A stretch of DNA of 64,000 nucleotides. Origin: Streptomyces sp. NBC_01381. GTDB taxonomy: Bacteria; Actinomycetota; Actinomycetes; Streptomycetales; Streptomycetaceae. The notes under the pieces were generated by a model that saw nothing but the letters and a program-made list of their open reading frames with translations, had not been told where the DNA came from and made no database searches. The first letter of the stretch is position 1, and every line of letters starts with the position of its first letter. Of the stretch, positions 10,645 to 18,659 are shown one piece after another. The stretch spans positions 1,426,001 through 1,490,000 of the forward strand of contig NZ_JAPEPI010000002.1 in NCBI RefSeq assembly GCF_026340305.1, in the 5' to 3' direction. Made by a program: the position numbers and the translations under genes.

Positions 10645-11163
10645 GTGGAGAAGCACGACGGGCGCGACGCCGGGCAGGCACGGACCGGTGATCTCAAAGA
10701 TCCCTGGTACGACGCGCTTGCCTCAGGCTGGGGCGAGTTGGACGGCACGGGCGCGCCGGCCCCCGTGGTGCCGCCCCAGGCCGCGCCGGACCGGAGCGCG
10801 AGCGCGGCCGACATCTATCTGGAGGTCCAGCACAGCGCGGCCTTCCAGGAGGTGCGGGGCCGGTACCGGCGGTTCGTCGTCCCGGCCGTGGCGGTCTTCT
10901 TCACCTGGTACGTCGCCTACGTCGTGACGGCCACGACGGCTCCTGGTCTCATGGCGCGGCCCGTCACGGGGTCCGTGAATGTCGCGATGCTCGCGGGCCT
11001 CGGACAGTTCCTCACGACCTTCCTGCTGACCTGGGCGTATGCCCGGCACGCCCGGCTGCGCAGGGATCGCCCGGCGCTGGACCTGCGCTGGGCCGTGTTC
11101 GAGCAGAAGCGGGAGCAGGACCAGCGAAGAGAACAGGAGCGGGCCCGGGGGAGCGAGCGATGA
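10645..11163 (+). CDS. DUF485 membrane protein, symporter partner
   Basis: A 172-residue protein with a polar N-terminal half and a DUF485 domain (about 65-150): LQHSAAF-type sequence, then two membrane segments (about 85-105 and 115-137) and a charged C-terminal tail. DUF485 proteins are regularly encoded directly before ActP-type cation/solute symporters and probably help their assembly. The GTG at 10645 has AAGGAG at 10633-10638. It overlaps the symporter by 4 nt (ATGA). Confidence 0.85.
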   Translation: MEKHDGRDAGQARTGDLKDPWYDALASGWGELDGTGAPAPVVPPQAAPDRSASAADIYLEVQHSAAFQEVRGRYRRFVVPAVAVFFTWYVAYVVTATTAPGLMARPVTGSVNVAMLAGLGQFLTTFLLTWAYARHARLRRDRPALDLRWAVFEQKREQDQRREQERARGSER

Positions 11164-12752
11164 CCGGCGATCATCAGACACTCGCGCTGCTGCTGTTCGG
11201 CGTGTTCGTGTCCGTCACGCTCGCGATCACGACGTGGGTGAGCCGCAACCGGCATGGCTCGGCGGAAGAGTTCTATGCCGGCGGGCGGCTCTTCTCGCCC
11301 ATGGAGAATGGTTTCGCCATCGCGGGCGACTACATGTCGGCCGCCTCCTTCCTCGGCATCTCCGGGCTGATCGCGCTGTTCGGCTACGACGGGCTGCTGT
11401 ACTCGGTGGGGTTCCTCGTCGCGTGGCTCGTCGTGCTCTTCCTCGTGGCCGAACTGGTGCGCAACTGCGGTCGGTTCACGCTCGCCGACGTCGTCGCCGC
11501 CCGGATGAGGGAGCGGCCCGTGCGCATCGCCGCGGGAACTTCCTCGGTGACCGTGTCCGTTCTCTATCTGGTGGCGCAGATGGTGGGGGCCGGCTCACTG
11601 GTGGCGCTGCTGCTGGGCGGGACGAGCGGGGCGGCGCAGGCCTGGACGGTGATCGGCGTCGGCGCGCTCATGGTCATCTATGTGTCGTTGGGAGGGATGC
11701 GGGCCACCACCTGGATCCAGATCGTCAAGGCGGTCCTGCTGATGTGTGGCGCGATCGCACTGACCGTGCTCGTGCTTGTGAGGTTCCACGGCGACTTCGA
11801 CCAGTTGCTGCGGACGGCGGCCGATCGCAGCGGGCACGGCAGCCAGTTCCTCGCGCCCGGGCTGAAGTACGGCGGCGACTGGACCGCGCGCCTCGACTTC
11901 ATCAGCCTCGGCCTCGCGCTCGTCCTCGGCACGGCCGGGCTGCCACACATCCTGTCCCGCTTCTACACGGTGCCGACCGCGCGGGCCGCGCGCCGCTCGG
12001 TCGTCTGGTCCATCGGGCTCATCGGCAGCTTCTACCTGATGACGATCGTGCTCGGCTTCGGTGCCGCCGCGATCGTGGGCTCCGATGCCGTCCGCGGGTC
12101 GAACGCCGCGGGCAACACGGCGGTTCCGCTGCTCGCGCTCGATCTGGGAGGTGGTGCGGATTCCACAGGCGGAACGGTTCTCTTCGCGATGGTCGCCGCC
12201 ATCGCCTTCGCCACGATCCTCGCCGTGGTCGCCGGGATCACGCTCGCCTCCTCGGCGTCCGTGGCCCACGATCTGTACGCGTCGCTGCGGCGCAAGCACG
12301 CCAAGCCGCGCAGCGAGGTGGCGGTGGCGCGGGTCGCCGCGGCCGGGATCGGCGTGGTCGCGATCGGCCTGGGGCTGCTCGCGCGTGACCTCAATGTGGC
12401 GTTCCTGGTTGGCCTGGCCTTCGCCGTCGCCGCGTCCGCCAATCTGCCTGTGCTGCTCTACTCGCTGTTCTGGCGGAACTTCACCACACGGGGCGCCGTC
12501 TGGTCGGTGTACGGGGGCCTGCTGCCCTCCCTGGTGCTGGTTCTGCTGTCACCCGTCGTCTCCGGCGGCCCGAACTCGCTCTTCCCTGGGGTGGACTTCC
12601 AGTACTTCCCCCTGGAGAACCCGGGGCTCGCCTCCATCCCGCTGGGCTTCCTCGCCGGATGGCTGGGCACCGTCACCTCGTCGGAGCCCGCGGACGAGGC
12701 CAAGCACGCGGAGACGGAAGTACGGTCGCTCACCGGGGCGGGAGCGGTGTAG
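11160..12752 (+). CDS. Sodium:solute symporter (acetate/ActP-like)
   Basis: A 530-residue SSS-family transporter with about 13 membrane helices and the family's early motif (SRNRHGSAEEFYAGGR, then FAIAGDYMSAASFLG). With its DUF485 partner it resembles acetate/monocarboxylate permeases of the ActP group. Substrate is inferred from family only. It lies downstream of a NarL-type two-component system and converges with a CitA/CitB-type pair whose homologues sense C4-dicarboxylates or citrate, so an organic-acid substrate is reasonable. Confidence 0.85.
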   Translation: MTGDHQTLALLLFGVFVSVTLAITTWVSRNRHGSAEEFYAGGRLFSPMENGFAIAGDYMSAASFLGISGLIALFGYDGLLYSVGFLVAWLVVLFLVAELVRNCGRFTLADVVAARMRERPVRIAAGTSSVTVSVLYLVAQMVGAGSLVALLLGGTSGAAQAWTVIGVGALMVIYVSLGGMRATTWIQIVKAVLLMCGAIALTVLVLVRFHGDFDQLLRTAADRSGHGSQFLAPGLKYGGDWTARLDFISLGLALVLGTAGLPHILSRFYTVPTARAARRSVVWSIGLIGSFYLMTIVLGFGAAAIVGSDAVRGSNAAGNTAVPLLALDLGGGADSTGGTVLFAMVAAIAFATILAVVAGITLASSASVAHDLYASLRRKHAKPRSEVAVARVAAAGIGVVAIGLGLLARDLNVAFLVGLAFAVAASANLPVLLYSLFWRNFTTRGAVWSVYGGLLPSLVLVLLSPVVSGGPNSLFPGVDFQYFPLENPGLASIPLGFLAGWLGTVTSSEPADEAKHAETEVRSLTGAGAV

Positions 12753-12776
12753 CAGTCATGTAGCGGCCCGGTGCGT

Positions 12777-13457
12777 CTAGGAGTGGCTGGACGTCCACTC
12801 ATAGCGGTGCTCCGGGCGGCCCGTGTCGCCGTACTTGAGACTCAGCCGCACGCGGCCCGAGCGCTCCAGGAGCTTCAGATAGCGCTGCGCCGTCTGCCGG
12901 CTCAGCCGGGTGCGGTTGGCCAACTCCTGTGCGGAGAGCGGCCCTTCGGCGCCCATCAGCGCCCTGCGGACCAGCTCGGCCGTCGTAGGGGAGTGCCCTT
13001 TGGGCAGCTCCGGAGCGGGAGTCGCCGACAGGGCGCCGAAGATCCGGTCGACCTCGGCCTGTTCGGCCTCGCCGCCGCCGTCCAGGGTGCGCCGCAGCGT
13101 CGCGTACGCCTCGAGCTTGGCGCGAAGCCCCGCGTAGGAGAACGGCTTGACCAGGTACTGCAGGGCACCGTGCCGCATCGCGGCCTGGACCGTGGCGACA
13201 TCGCGTGCGGCCGTCACCATGATCACGTCGGTCTGGTGGCCGCGCTCGCGCAACGTACGGACGACCGAGAGCCCCGTCTCGTCCGGCAGATAGTGGTCGA
13301 GCAGCACCAGGTCGATGGGGAGCTCCTCGACGATCCGCAGCGCCTCGGCGGCACTGTGGGCCTTCGCGGCCACACGGAAGCCGGGGACCTTCGCCACGTA
13401 GGCGGCGTTGACATCCGCGACGCGGACGTCGTCGTCCACGACGAGCACCTCGATCAT
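12777..13457 (-). CDS. Response regulator, CitB/DcuR type
   Basis: A 226-residue regulator. The receiver contains DDD at 8-10, phospho-acceptor D54 in VLLDHYLPDE, and K in YLVKPF. The C-terminal half carries a helix-turn-helix (LSAQELANRTRLSRQTAQRY, about 173-192), as in CitB/DpiA/DcuR. Its ATG (13457) overlaps the stop of the kinase gene (ATGA). These systems usually control organic-acid uptake or catabolism; the convergent neighbour is an organic-acid-type symporter. The longer open frame upstream is out of phase with the family start. Confidence 0.92.
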   Translation of the reverse strand: MIEVLVVDDDVRVADVNAAYVAKVPGFRVAAKAHSAAEALRIVEELPIDLVLLDHYLPDETGLSVVRTLRERGHQTDVIMVTAARDVATVQAAMRHGALQYLVKPFSYAGLRAKLEAYATLRRTLDGGGEAEQAEVDRIFGALSATPAPELPKGHSPTTAELVRRALMGAEGPLSAQELANRTRLSRQTAQRYLKLLERSGRVRLSLKYGDTGRPEHRYEWTSSHS

Positions 13458-15094
13458 CGTGCCTCCTCCGTGGGGGCCAGCTCGGCCTGGGCGAGCGCTT
13501 CGGGCAGGACGACGGTGAACTCGGCGCCCCCGTCGGGCGAGGCGCCGGCCCGCACGCTGCCGCCCTGGCGCTCGGCGAGCCTGCGCACCAGAGCGAGCCC
13601 GATGCCGCGCTTGCCGTGCGCCGGAGGCTCCTTGGTGGACCACCCCTCAGTGAAGATCGTCTCGCGTCGGTCGGCGGGCACGCCAGGGCCCGTGTCGCGC
13701 ACCTGGAGGACGACGGCACGTCCCTCGGAACGGACATCGACCTCCACGCGCGCGTGCGGGGTGCCCGCCGCGGCGTCGAGCGCGTTGTCCACGAGGTTGC
13801 CGACGGTGGTGACGAGGCCGCCCGGGTCGATCAGCCGGTCGGGCAGTGCGGTGTCGCGCGGGACGGCGAGCACGACGCCGCGCTCGGCGGCGACGGTGGC
13901 CTTGCCCACCAGGAGGGCGGCGAGCAGCGGATCGCCGATCTTCTCCGTGATCTGCTCGGCGGTCACCCGGTGCGCGCCGGCCACCTCGCCGACGAACTCC
14001 GCCGCCTCCTCGTACATCTCGAGCTCCAGGAGGCCGAGCAGCGTGTGCATGCGGTTGGCATGCTCGTGGTCCTGGGCGCGCAGCGCGTCGATGAGGCCGC
14101 GGGTGGAGTCCAGTTCACGGCCCAGCTGCTCCAGTTCGGTGCGGTCACGCAGGGTGGCCACGGCGCCGCCGTCGTCCGTGGGCATGCGGTTGGCGACCAG
14201 TACGCGCTGACCGCGGACGGTCAGCAGGTCGGTGCCGCTGACCCGTCCGGCGAGCACATCGGTCGTACGCCCTGGGCCGAGCGCGGTGTCCAGGGGCTGT
14301 CCGATGGCCTCGGGACCGAGGCCGAGGAGGCGCTGGGCCTCGTCGTTCAGGAGGCGGATCCGGCCGGCGCGGTCCAGGGCGACCACGCCCTCACGGATGC
14401 TGTGCAGCATGGCCTCGCGTTCCGCGAGGAGCGCTGAAATATCGGAGAAGGCCAGGTCACGGGTCTGTCGCTGCACTCGGCGTGAGATCAGGTAGGCGGC
14501 GAGCGCCCCCACGGCGAGCGCGCCGCCCGCGTAGGCGAAGAGGCCGGGGATCGCATGGATGAGCCGGGCGCGGACACTGTCGTACTCGATGCCTACGGAG
14601 ACGGCGCCCACGATGTTCCCGTCGATGTCCCGCAGCGGCACCTTGCCGCGGGCCGAGCGGCCCAGGGTGCCGTTGTCGATCTCCATGACCTCGTCGCCTG
14701 CGAGCGCTTCGCTGGGGTCGGTCGAGACGACCCTGCCGATCTCGTCGCGGTCGGTGTGGGACCAGCGCACCCCGTCCTTGTTCATGATCACGACGTACTC
14801 GGCGCCGCTTGCGCGCCGGATCCGTTCCGCTTCCGTCTGCACGGGCCCGTCGGCCGTGGGCCTGGAGGAGCTCAGGTCGTCGGCGATCTGCGGCTGGGCC
14901 GCCGTCGTCTGCGCGATGGCGAGCGCGCGGCGCATCGCCTGGTCGTCCAGCTGATCGCTGAGCGGTGCGAGGAAGAGCCCGGTGGCCAGCACGGCGACCC
15001 CGGCGGCGATCGCCAACTGCATCAGCAGGACCTGCGAGAAGACGCGCCGGGGCAGGCCTAGGCGGAGTCGTCGGGCAGGGGAGGTCGGGCTCAT
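13454..15094 (-). CDS. Sensor histidine kinase, CitA/DcuS type
   Basis: A 546-residue kinase with the CitA architecture: a membrane helix (about 20-43), an extracytoplasmic PAS-like sensor (about 44-182), a second membrane helix (about 183-204), a cytoplasmic PAS (about 222-325), the phospho-acceptor box QDHEHANRMHTLLGLLEL (H343), and an HATPase domain (VGNLVDNALDA; DTGPGVP; GKRGIGLALVRRLA). CitA/DcuS sensors bind citrate or C4-dicarboxylates directly; the ligand here is not determined. It is cotranscribed with its regulator through a 4-nt overlap. Confidence 0.92.
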   Translation of the reverse strand: MSPTSPARRLRLGLPRRVFSQVLLMQLAIAAGVAVLATGLFLAPLSDQLDDQAMRRALAIAQTTAAQPQIADDLSSSRPTADGPVQTEAERIRRASGAEYVVIMNKDGVRWSHTDRDEIGRVVSTDPSEALAGDEVMEIDNGTLGRSARGKVPLRDIDGNIVGAVSVGIEYDSVRARLIHAIPGLFAYAGGALAVGALAAYLISRRVQRQTRDLAFSDISALLAEREAMLHSIREGVVALDRAGRIRLLNDEAQRLLGLGPEAIGQPLDTALGPGRTTDVLAGRVSGTDLLTVRGQRVLVANRMPTDDGGAVATLRDRTELEQLGRELDSTRGLIDALRAQDHEHANRMHTLLGLLELEMYEEAAEFVGEVAGAHRVTAEQITEKIGDPLLAALLVGKATVAAERGVVLAVPRDTALPDRLIDPGGLVTTVGNLVDNALDAAAGTPHARVEVDVRSEGRAVVLQVRDTGPGVPADRRETIFTEGWSTKEPPAHGKRGIGLALVRRLAERQGGSVRAGASPDGGAEFTVVLPEALAQAELAPTEEAR

Positions 15095-16108: not shown

Positions 16109-17368
16109 TCAGCCGTCCTGGGGCGTGGGCACCGGCTGGGGCGGCCGCAGTCCGACGTACTGCCCGCTGGGGCGCATGCGCAGCGGCCGCTCGCCGTACT
16201 CCTCCAGGGCATGGGCGATCCAGCCGGCCGTGCGCGCCACCGCGAAGATCGTCTCGCCGGCCTCGGCGGGCATCCCGGAGGACGCGGTCAGGACGGCGAG
16301 GGCGAGGTCGACATTGGCGTGCAGGTCCGTGTGGCGCGCGGTGGTGGCCACCACGTCACGGGCCGCCGCCAGGGCGGGACCGGCCTTGGGGATCTCCTCC
16401 AGGAGGGCGAACAGGGCCACCGCGCGCGGGTCGTCGCCCGGATAGAGGCGGTGGCCGAGCCCCGGTACGCGGCGTCCGGCGCGGAGTTCGTCCGCCACTA
16501 CAGGGGCCGCGCTGCCGCGGTCGAGCACGTCGAGGAGCATGCGGTGGGCGAGGCCGCTGGCGGCGCCGTGCAGCGGGCCCTCCAGGACGCCGAGGCCGGC
16601 CGAGACGGCCGCGTACGGGTGGGCGCGCGCGGAGGCGGCGACGCGGACGGCGAGCGTCGACGCGGCGAGGTCGTGGTCGACGAGGAGCGCGAGTGCGGTG
16701 TCCAGGACGCGCAGGGTGGCTTCGTCGGGCTTCCGGCCGGTCAGGCGTGCCCAGAGGCGGCGGGCCAGGGGGCCCTCGTCCTGGTACGTGCGTGGGATCG
16801 GTGGGAGCGCGGTCACGAGGGTGGGGATGAGGGTGCGCGCGGTGCCGATGACGGCTTCTTCGGAGAGGTCGAAGCGGAGGGGGTCCGCGGCCGCGGCCGA
16901 GATGGCGGCGACCCGCAGGCGGTCGGTCGGGCCGCTGTGCTCGGGCAGCGCGTCGACGGCTCGGCGCGCCGCGAGAGCGGTCTCCTCGGGGGCCGTGAAA
17001 CGGATCCCGGGGCGCAGGGTGCCGGTCCAGAGCCACTCGGCGACCTCTTCGTAGGAGTACGCCAGGGCGAGCTCCACCGCGTCGACGCCGCGGAAGTAGT
17101 AGCGGTCCTTGTCGATGAGCGTGATGCGGGTCCGTACGGAGAGTTCGCTGCTCGCGGAGGCCGCGGCGGGCTCCCTGCGGTTCTTGCGGGCCAGCGACTC
17201 GACCTCCTTGGCGTCGAAGGTGCTGCCCCGGGAGCCGGGGCCACGACGGCTGCTGAGCTGGCCGCGGCTCACGTACGCGTACACCGTCTCTGGCTTCACG
17301 CCGAGCAGCTCCGCGGCTTCCCGGGTGTTCAGCCGGCGGCCTTCGCGGGCGGCTTCCTGATCCGTCAT
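16109..17368 (-). CDS. Citrate synthase-like protein with N-terminal helix-turn-helix
   Basis: A 419-residue protein. Residues 12-60 are a MerR/excisionase-type helix-turn-helix (LNTREAAELLGVKPETVYAYVSRG), followed by a citrate synthase fold (about 75-405). Catalytic positions are kept: H232 (DHDLAAST), H267 (PLHGAAS), H306 (GLGHRLYP), D353 (NVDLA), though the usual Phe-Tyr after the Asp is absent. The start is taken at ATG 17368; the 13 codons upstream lack a ribosome site. It is divergent from a second citrate synthase, and a perfect palindrome lies in the gap. It may sense a tricarboxylic-cycle metabolite and regulate both genes; that is inference. Confidence 0.85.
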   Translation of the reverse strand: MTDQEAAREGRRLNTREAAELLGVKPETVYAYVSRGQLSSRRGPGSRGSTFDAKEVESLARKNRREPAAASASSELSVRTRITLIDKDRYYFRGVDAVELALAYSYEEVAEWLWTGTLRPGIRFTAPEETALAARRAVDALPEHSGPTDRLRVAAISAAAADPLRFDLSEEAVIGTARTLIPTLVTALPPIPRTYQDEGPLARRLWARLTGRKPDEATLRVLDTALALLVDHDLAASTLAVRVAASARAHPYAAVSAGLGVLEGPLHGAASGLAHRMLLDVLDRGSAAPVVADELRAGRRVPGLGHRLYPGDDPRAVALFALLEEIPKAGPALAAARDVVATTARHTDLHANVDLALAVLTASSGMPAEAGETIFAVARTAGWIAHALEEYGERPLRMRPSGQYVGLRPPQPVPTPQDG

Positions 17369-17402
17369 GGGCGACACCGTATCCACATCGAGCAGACATT
17401 GA

Positions 17403-17418
17403 GTCAATCAATATTGAC
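17403..17418. promoter_or_regulatory. 16-bp palindrome between divergent citrate synthases
   Basis: GTCAATCAATATTGAC is a perfect inverted repeat (arms GTCAAT/ATTGAC, 4-bp centre). A further half-site pair, TTGAC (17414-17418) and GTCAA (17428-17432), extends it. It is notably AT-rich for this genome and lies in the 109-bp gap shared by the two promoters. It is a good operator candidate, possibly for the helix-turn-helix citrate synthase encoded beside it. Confidence 0.6.
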
Positions 17419-17477
17419 AGCTACTAAGTCAAGCATGGACAGTCGAATCAAGTCCAGGGAGGAAGTCGAGGAAGAAC

Positions 17478-18659
17478 ATGCCGATCAATGGCTCCACCAC
17501 CACCCCCACCGGTCCCGTGGAGGTCCCCCGCGGACTCGCCGGCGTCGTCGTGACCGAGACCCGGCTCGGAGACGTCAGGGGATCCGAGGGCTTCTACCAC
17601 TACCGCCAGTACTCGGCCGTCGAACTCGCGCAGACCCGCGGCTTCGAGGACGTATGGCACCTGATGTTCCACGGCGAGCTGCCGGACGCGGCGCACCGGA
17701 CGGCCTTCGCCGCGCGGACCGCTTCCCTGCGGCACCTGCCCGACGAGGTGCGCGCCGCGCTGCCCGCCATAGCCAGCGCCAGTGCCCTGTCGGGGCCGCT
17801 CTCCGGGCTGCGCACCGCGCTCTCGCTCTTCGGGGCGGCGCGGGGCTTCCGCCCGGTGTACGACATCGACGGTGACCGGCGCCGTGCGGACGCCATGGCC
17901 GCGTCCGCCGTGGTGCCGACCCTGCTCACCGCGCTGTACCGCCTTGGCCAGGGCCTCGACCCCGTCGAGCCGCGCGAAGACCTCTCCTATGCCGCCAACT
18001 ACCTCTACATGCTGACTGGTTCGGAGCCGGAGCCGGACCGCGCGCGGGCGATCGAGCAGTACTTGATCTCAACCATTGACCACGGCTTCAACGCGTCAAC
18101 CTTCACGGCCCGGGTCATCACATCGACCGGCGCGGATGTGGCGGCCTGCCTGGTGGGAGCCGTCGGCGCGCTGTCCGGGCCGCTGCACGGCGGGGCGCCG
18201 AGCCGGGCCCTCGACACCCTCGATGCGATCGGCACCCCCGACCGCATCGACGGCTGGATCCGCGAGCGGGTCCTCGCGGGGGACCGCATCATGGGCTTCG
18301 GGCACCCCGTCTACCGCACCGAGGACCCGCGCTCGCGCATGCTGCGGGGCATCGCGCGGCAATTCGGCGGGCCGATGGTGGAGTTCGCGGTCGAGGTCGA
18401 GCGCCAGGTCGAGGCGATCCTCGCCGAGCTGAAGCCGGGACGTGAGCTGCACACGAACGTGGAGTTCTACGCGGGCGTCGTCATGGAGCTGTGCGGCCTG
18501 CCTCGCGAGATGTTCACGCCGACGTTCGCGGCGGCGCGGGTGGTGGGCTGGGGGGCCAACATCCTGGAGCAAGCGGAGGACTCGAAGATCATTCGGCCTG
18601 CGGCGCGGTATGTGGGGCCTGTTCCGCCGGAGCCGGTGCCGGTAGTGCCGGTGGCCTGA
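17478..18659 (+). CDS. Citrate synthase (CitA/citrate synthase 2 type)
   Basis: A 393-residue citrate synthase-fold enzyme, which would condense oxaloacetate and acetyl-CoA (or a related acyl-CoA). Motifs: H202 (DHGFNASTF), H237 (PLHGGAPS), H276 (GFGHPVYR), and NVEFYAGVVMELCGL, where E329 occupies the position of the usual catalytic Asp (NVDFY). The start ATG 17478 follows GAGGAAGAAC. It is divergent from the helix-turn-helix citrate synthase. The Glu may lower activity or reflect a different acyl-CoA preference. A terminator follows 11 bp after the stop. Confidence 0.9.
   Translation: MPINGSTTTPTGPVEVPRGLAGVVVTETRLGDVRGSEGFYHYRQYSAVELAQTRGFEDVWHLMFHGELPDAAHRTAFAARTASLRHLPDEVRAALPAIASASALSGPLSGLRTALSLFGAARGFRPVYDIDGDRRRADAMAASAVVPTLLTALYRLGQGLDPVEPREDLSYAANYLYMLTGSEPEPDRARAIEQYLISTIDHGFNASTFTARVITSTGADVAACLVGAVGALSGPLHGGAPSRALDTLDAIGTPDRIDGWIRERVLAGDRIMGFGHPVYRTEDPRSRMLRGIARQFGGPMVEFAVEVERQVEAILAELKPGRELHTNVEFYAGVVMELCGLPREMFTPTFAAARVVGWGANILEQAEDSKIIRPAARYVGPVPPEPVPVVPVA

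Follow-up and report, generated by a model that had tools for sequence, protein, structure and literature searches.

Our analysis suggests that a citrate synthase (CS) carrying a helix-turn-helix (HTH) domain at its amino terminus, here called HTH-CS, is very probably a widespread, uncharacterised gene switch that senses a metabolite and derives from an enzyme of central metabolism. We give a probability of roughly 0.8 to the reading that HTH-CS is a one-component regulator derived from CS, which acts at a local operator, likely represses itself and its divergent partner gene, and uses its CS domain as the sensor. The gene lies in a 64,000-nucleotide stretch of a Streptomyces genome (the window; Table 1) and is separated from its partner, a CS of the Bacillus subtilis CitA-like type, by a gap of 109 bp (17369-17477). 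The open reading frames and Pfam domains confirm the arrangement described in the earlier note, namely the fusion of a MerR-type head to a CS that is divergent from a second CS gene. Judged by sequence comparison, HTH-CS, the candidate operator and the partner form a genuine regulatory unit with deep conservation. In the open-access papers searched, we found no published description of a CS-HTH fusion as a regulator.

Table 1. Coordinates of the features of the HTH-CS locus in the window.
Feature	Position	Strand	Basis or remark
HTH-CS (HTH-citrate synthase fusion gene; proposed regulator)	16109..17368	-	419 aa; Pfam HTH_17 + Citrate_synt
CS domain of HTH-CS	16169..17140	-	residues 77-400; Pfam; predicted fold like solved citrate synthases
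Catalytic Asp354 (NVDL)	16307..16309	-	Asp in 120/126 HTH-CS
Catalytic His306 (GLGHRLY)	16451..16453	-	His in 123/126 HTH-CS
Catalytic His267 (GPLHG)	16568..16570	-	His in 124/126 HTH-CS
MerR-like/excisionase-type HTH domain	17180..17332	-	residues 13-63; HTH_17, alignments, AlphaFold
Likely -10 of HTH-CS promoter, TACGGT	17376..17381	-	7 nt before ATG; predicted
Candidate operator, TTGAG-N3-ATCAA-TA-TTGAC	17399..17418	.	three half-sites, conserved by comparison
Operator half-sites	TTGAG 17399-17403; ATCAA 17407-17411; TTGAC 17414-17418		
Operator core, 12 bp, ATCAATATTGAC	17407-17418		
Likely partner CS promoter	17414..17443	+	-35 TTGACA 17414-17419, 18-bp spacer, -10-like GACAGT 17438-17443; predicted
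Divergent partner, CS of the B. subtilis CitA-like type	17478..18659	+	393 aa; Pfam; best solved relative 2c6x
Glu329 of partner, at the catalytic Asp position	18462..18464	+	Glu in 74/78 partners

The gene order at the window locus matches the reported order of SCO5828-SCO5831 (response regulator, sensor kinase, sucrase/ferredoxin-like, citrate synthase-like; PMC9739823), and SCO5832 is a putative CS (PMC12323332). An MctC-like monocarboxylate transporter and a DcuS/DcuR-like two-component system (HK 13454-15094, RR around 12777-13556) adjoin the pair (window 11160-15094), and an organic-acid uptake context is plausible for these neighbours.

HTH-CS starts at the ATG at 17366-17368, the same place at which its Streptomyces relatives start with MTDQ or MRDQ; a longer, TTG-started open reading frame was dropped because the extension lacks conservation in relatives. 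Pfam recognises HTH_17 above its cut-off (E 6.6e-8) and a complete CS domain (Citrate_synt, PF00285; E 4.9e-63) in the window protein, in which MerR and MerR_1 score just under the cut-off. Across the family, HTH_17 is matched in 41 of 42 members, MerR_1 in 38 and MerR in 31, and the YAYVSRG motif of the HTH domain is near-invariant in two alignments of HTH-CS members. The AlphaFold model consists of a confident HTH (residues 11-60, pLDDT 87-96 in blocks), a linker of low confidence that is predicted to be disordered (residues 67-73), and then the CS fold (mean pLDDT 92), for which Foldseek finds 1ixe as the best match among solved citrate synthases (E 2e-15). The catalytic His/His/Asp residues, together with the substrate arginines (R315, R379 and R399, near-invariant), are retained in 120-126 of 126 HTH-CS members; His267 we take to be a catalytic residue from established CS enzymology. 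HTH-CS sequences form a single clade in the tree, apart from all other CS (support 100/100), and this clade takes in relatives from about ten phyla. The HTH-CS family has a single origin. In one Streptomyces genome a frameshift (G019:C1:6842312-6842367) seems to split HTH-CS while the operator and partner are intact; this is either an assembly error or a broken regulator.

The gap between the two genes was described in the earlier note as holding a perfect palindrome, GTCAATCAATATTGAC (17403-17418), which occurs only once in the window even when three mismatches are allowed (0.01 expected). This description does not hold: the reverse complement is GTCAATATTGATTGAC, and pairing is limited to the 6-bp arms GTCAAT/ATTGAC, which flank CAAT. 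Inside this 16-mer, the perfect palindrome is TCAATATTGA (17408-17417), and the left arm of the 16-mer straddles two half-sites of the unit that is actually conserved, a set of three half-sites whose Streptomyces form is TTGATTNAATCAAYRTTGAC. The aligned intergenic DNA of Streptomyces reads TTGATTNAATCAATATTGACA, with 3 bp between the first two half-sites; elsewhere the same core is found with a gap of 6 or 7 bp (N6/N7). Such variable spacing (3, 6 or 7) needs a flexible or multimeric reader, and the conservation excludes a chance origin of the window site. Another strongly conserved Streptomyces stretch, agTCAA.caTGGACAGT, lies at 17425-17443 and possibly overlaps a reported MtrA site.

The operator and the two genes are closely linked within the genus. 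Among 101 Streptomyces genomes, HTH-CS is present in 62 and the partner in 62; 61 have both, one has HTH-CS alone, one has the partner alone and 38 have neither (p 1.6e-25). A genome-wide pattern search locates the operator at the locus in 59 of the 62 HTH-CS genomes; two of the other three (G031 and G084) retain the core, and the third (G013) has neither partner nor core. The core is present in 61/61 genomes that have both genes. Pattern matches occur in only 2 of the 39 genomes that lack HTH-CS, at sites unlike the consensus, and off-locus matches in Streptomyces are few, with 11 sites spread over 10 genomes, and likewise differ from it. Broad off-locus matches in other actinobacterial genomes resemble chance and were excluded from the evidence.

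Several natural variants are informative. One genome (G287) has HTH-CS with no neighbouring partner and also no core; another (G027) has the partner with no HTH-CS, and the core is absent nearby; in a third (G032), an inversion of the segment containing CS and operator has placed CS and HTH-CS in tandem behind the operator, all in one direction. Together with G013, these variants fit a single operator that would serve both genes.

The source genome (9.87 Mb) carries five CS-domain genes and two copies of the core, one at this locus and one at an unrelated MerR gene. The second copy (L063:1501-1512; G000:C4:172424-172435) has the MerR-like gene on one side and, on the other, a divergent gene for an NAD-binding reductase-like protein. 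As the only further core match is at a MerR gene's own promoter, the idea of a larger regulon in the source genome was dismissed.

Loci were also gathered by protein pattern or similarity alone, without use of the operator sequence. The protein-pattern scan gave 80 loci from Actinomycetota, Chloroflexota, Deinococcota, Acidobacteriota, Gemmatimonadota, Verrucomicrobiota, Rhodothermota, Myxococcota, Pseudomonadota and a Candidatus Eremiobacteraeota bin; many of these are metagenome bins, and isolates back at least Chloroflexota, Deinococcota and Pseudomonadota, besides Streptomyces. The full operator rule, read toward HTH-CS, is RTCAA-N2-TTGAY-Nx-RTCAA. Of 127 loci, 109 match this rule upstream of HTH-CS and 116 match the core, compared with 0.0 and 0.15, respectively, in dinucleotide shuffles. 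The distance from HTH-CS ranges from -11 to -226, and the operator is kept where the divergent neighbour is a CoA-transferase or an HMGL-like enzyme and not a CS. Two Chloroflexota loci (L068 and L074) have no site directly at HTH-CS; here the site is found before a dehydratase-HTH-CS operon that faces a CS. A fresh sample of 190 Alphaproteobacteria genomes contains 21 HTH-bearing loci, with the full operator at 16 and the core at 20, and the divergent HTH-CS/CS arrangement recurs in distant families among 198 Actinomycetota genomes. The earlier note would have counted its proposal as refuted if the site were missing elsewhere in species that have the gene pair; this refutation did not come about: operator-bearing loci span about ten phyla, and the site tracks the pair.

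The genes that face HTH-CS provide some indication of what it may sense. The window partner is a CS (Pfam Citrate_synt, E 1e-108), and the Glu at its catalytic Asp position is also found in B. subtilis CitA (2c6x). In the sampled loci, a CitA-like CS is the divergent neighbour in Actinomycetota, Acidobacteriota, Myxococcota, Chloroflexota Anaerolineae and most Alphaproteobacteria; a CoA-transferase III takes this place in most Betaproteobacteria; and a homocitrate/isopropylmalate-synthase-like HMGL protein does so in Ktedonobacteria, Calidithermus, Verrucomicrobiota and one proteobacterial bin. Since every one of these partner types either acts on acyl-CoA or produces or consumes citrate-like acids, they suggest that the HTH-CS ligand is an acyl-CoA or citrate-like compound.

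Some partner genes have unusual structures. Three CoA-transferase III partners (L102:2456-3862, L113:2488-3882 and L110:2466-3893) have an additional amino-terminal region of about 205 residues with no Pfam match. In two Streptomyces genomes (G095, locus L012; and G012, at G012:C1:3427055 / G012:C1:7966165), the partner CS gene is interrupted close to its 5' end; in G095 its initial 44 or so codons remain beside HTH-CS, and in both genomes the remainder is far off on the same contig, a pattern that points to large rearrangements whose breakpoints fell within the gene.

In the proposed mechanism, the MerR-like HTH of HTH-CS would read the TTGAY half-sites of the operator between the two genes and, by overlapping the predicted -35 of the partner, would repress both. 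The CS domain, with its complete active site, would act as a sensor of oxaloacetate, acyl-CoA or product, and the ligand would change the dimer via the open/closed motion known for citrate synthases, leading to release of the DNA. We infer from the sequence data that HTH-CS itself is the protein that binds the operator. The retained active-site residues suggest that it probably senses a metabolite; they would also be compatible with an ordinary enzyme whose extra domain tethers it to DNA. Of the metabolite-sensing repressor of itself and its partner that had been proposed in the earlier note, the enzyme-derived regulator of both genes is strongly supported by the conservation of the site and by its tracking of the gene pair, and the sensing and the repression are each probable.

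HTH-CS could conceivably be a trigger enzyme, one that combines (methyl)citrate synthase activity with binding of the operator, with turnover or substrate occupancy setting the repression, as in PutA-type bifunctional proteins. We consider this possible and rather unlikely: the near-complete retention of the catalytic and substrate residues argues for it, but these residues may be retained for sensing alone. The adjacent citB and citC genes of Caulobacter encode CS-like proteins, and E. coli gltA was complemented by CitB and not by CitC (PMC7083601). CitC (CCNA_03758) is a candidate HTH-CS member; if it is one, its failure would speak against catalysis and for a pure sensor. The wider proposal that HTH-CS is an ancient, pan-bacterial trigger-enzyme family, in which a competent CS serves as both sensor and regulator of condensing-enzyme and CoA-transferase genes, is similarly tentative; if true, TCA-cycle entry flux would be linked directly to transcription.

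The sign of regulation can be approached through the predicted promoters. The elements of the likely partner promoter are conserved in 29 aligned Streptomyces loci, and its -35 TTGACA coincides with the third half-site. Because the operator overlaps this putative -35, repression is the simplest reading, and HTH-CS is probably a repressor. The opposite sign, in which HTH-CS would be a MerR-like activator, seems improbable: the HTH is indeed MerR-like and no convincing -35 can be seen for HTH-CS itself, but the operator covers the predicted partner -35 and not the spacer that separates it from the -10, and this spacer is predicted at 18 bp compared with the 19-20 bp usual for MerR activation (PMC8113463). 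On the other side of the gap, CACCGTATCC (+ strand), which contains the predicted -10 region of HTH-CS, recurs in most Streptomyces relatives, and the position of this -10 suggests that the HTH-CS transcript may be leaderless. A sigma-70 scan with a strict consensus and a terminator scan of the gap gave no matches.

It is very unlikely that another regulator, such as MtrA, owns the conserved element, or that it represents back-to-back -35 boxes, with the HTH serving otherwise: TTGAC looks like a -35 hexamer, and MtrA is reported to bind the orthologous SCO5831-SCO5832 intergenic region of S. coelicolor by EMSA (PMC12323332), so other regulators act at this region, but three half-sites whose inner spacing is fixed reappear in Proteobacteria, Chloroflexota, Deinococcota and others, even with a different neighbour, and vanish where the gene pair is broken up. 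MtrA was rejected as the motif owner because the motif also occurs outside Actinomycetota, beyond the reach of actinobacterial MtrA, and the three-half-site pattern in unrelated promoters rules out two back-to-back -35 boxes only.

Bacteria often have several CS genes, and the division of work among them is poorly understood. A regulator family derived from the enzyme itself, whose one well-defined operator is shared by about ten phyla, would act as a direct sensor where the TCA cycle is entered. HTH-CS and its operator make a protein-DNA pair that can be tested at once in many organisms, and the regulator reading would correct the annotation of many genes that are now named citrate synthase.

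HTH-CS shares the fold and the complete catalytic residues of the CS family (TIGR01800-like type II; B. subtilis CitA, 2c6x; Metallosphaera, 6abx), but scores far under all NCBIfam CS cut-offs (158.9 versus 421.3 bits for TIGR01800), has an amino-terminal HTH and forms its own clade. With the MerR family, and with BldC-like small MerR proteins, it shares a MerR-like winged HTH at the amino terminus; in its predicted model, however, a full enzyme domain takes the place of the coiled-coil dimerisation helix and MerR effector domain, and its operator overlaps a predicted -35. In B. subtilis, the gene for CitR, a LysR-type regulator, is divergent from that of a CitA-type (Glu) CS; HTH-CS is likewise encoded divergently from a CitA-type CS, but is itself a CS fusion. 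The MocR/GabR, ROK (NagC/Mlc) and PutA proteins combine an enzyme fold with a DNA-binding domain, a presumed metabolite input and, often, a local target. Two traits of such enzyme-derived regulators, a DNA-binding domain fused to an enzyme fold and a dedicated, conserved operator, are both present in HTH-CS, which differs from these proteins in that its enzyme fold is that of a citrate synthase.
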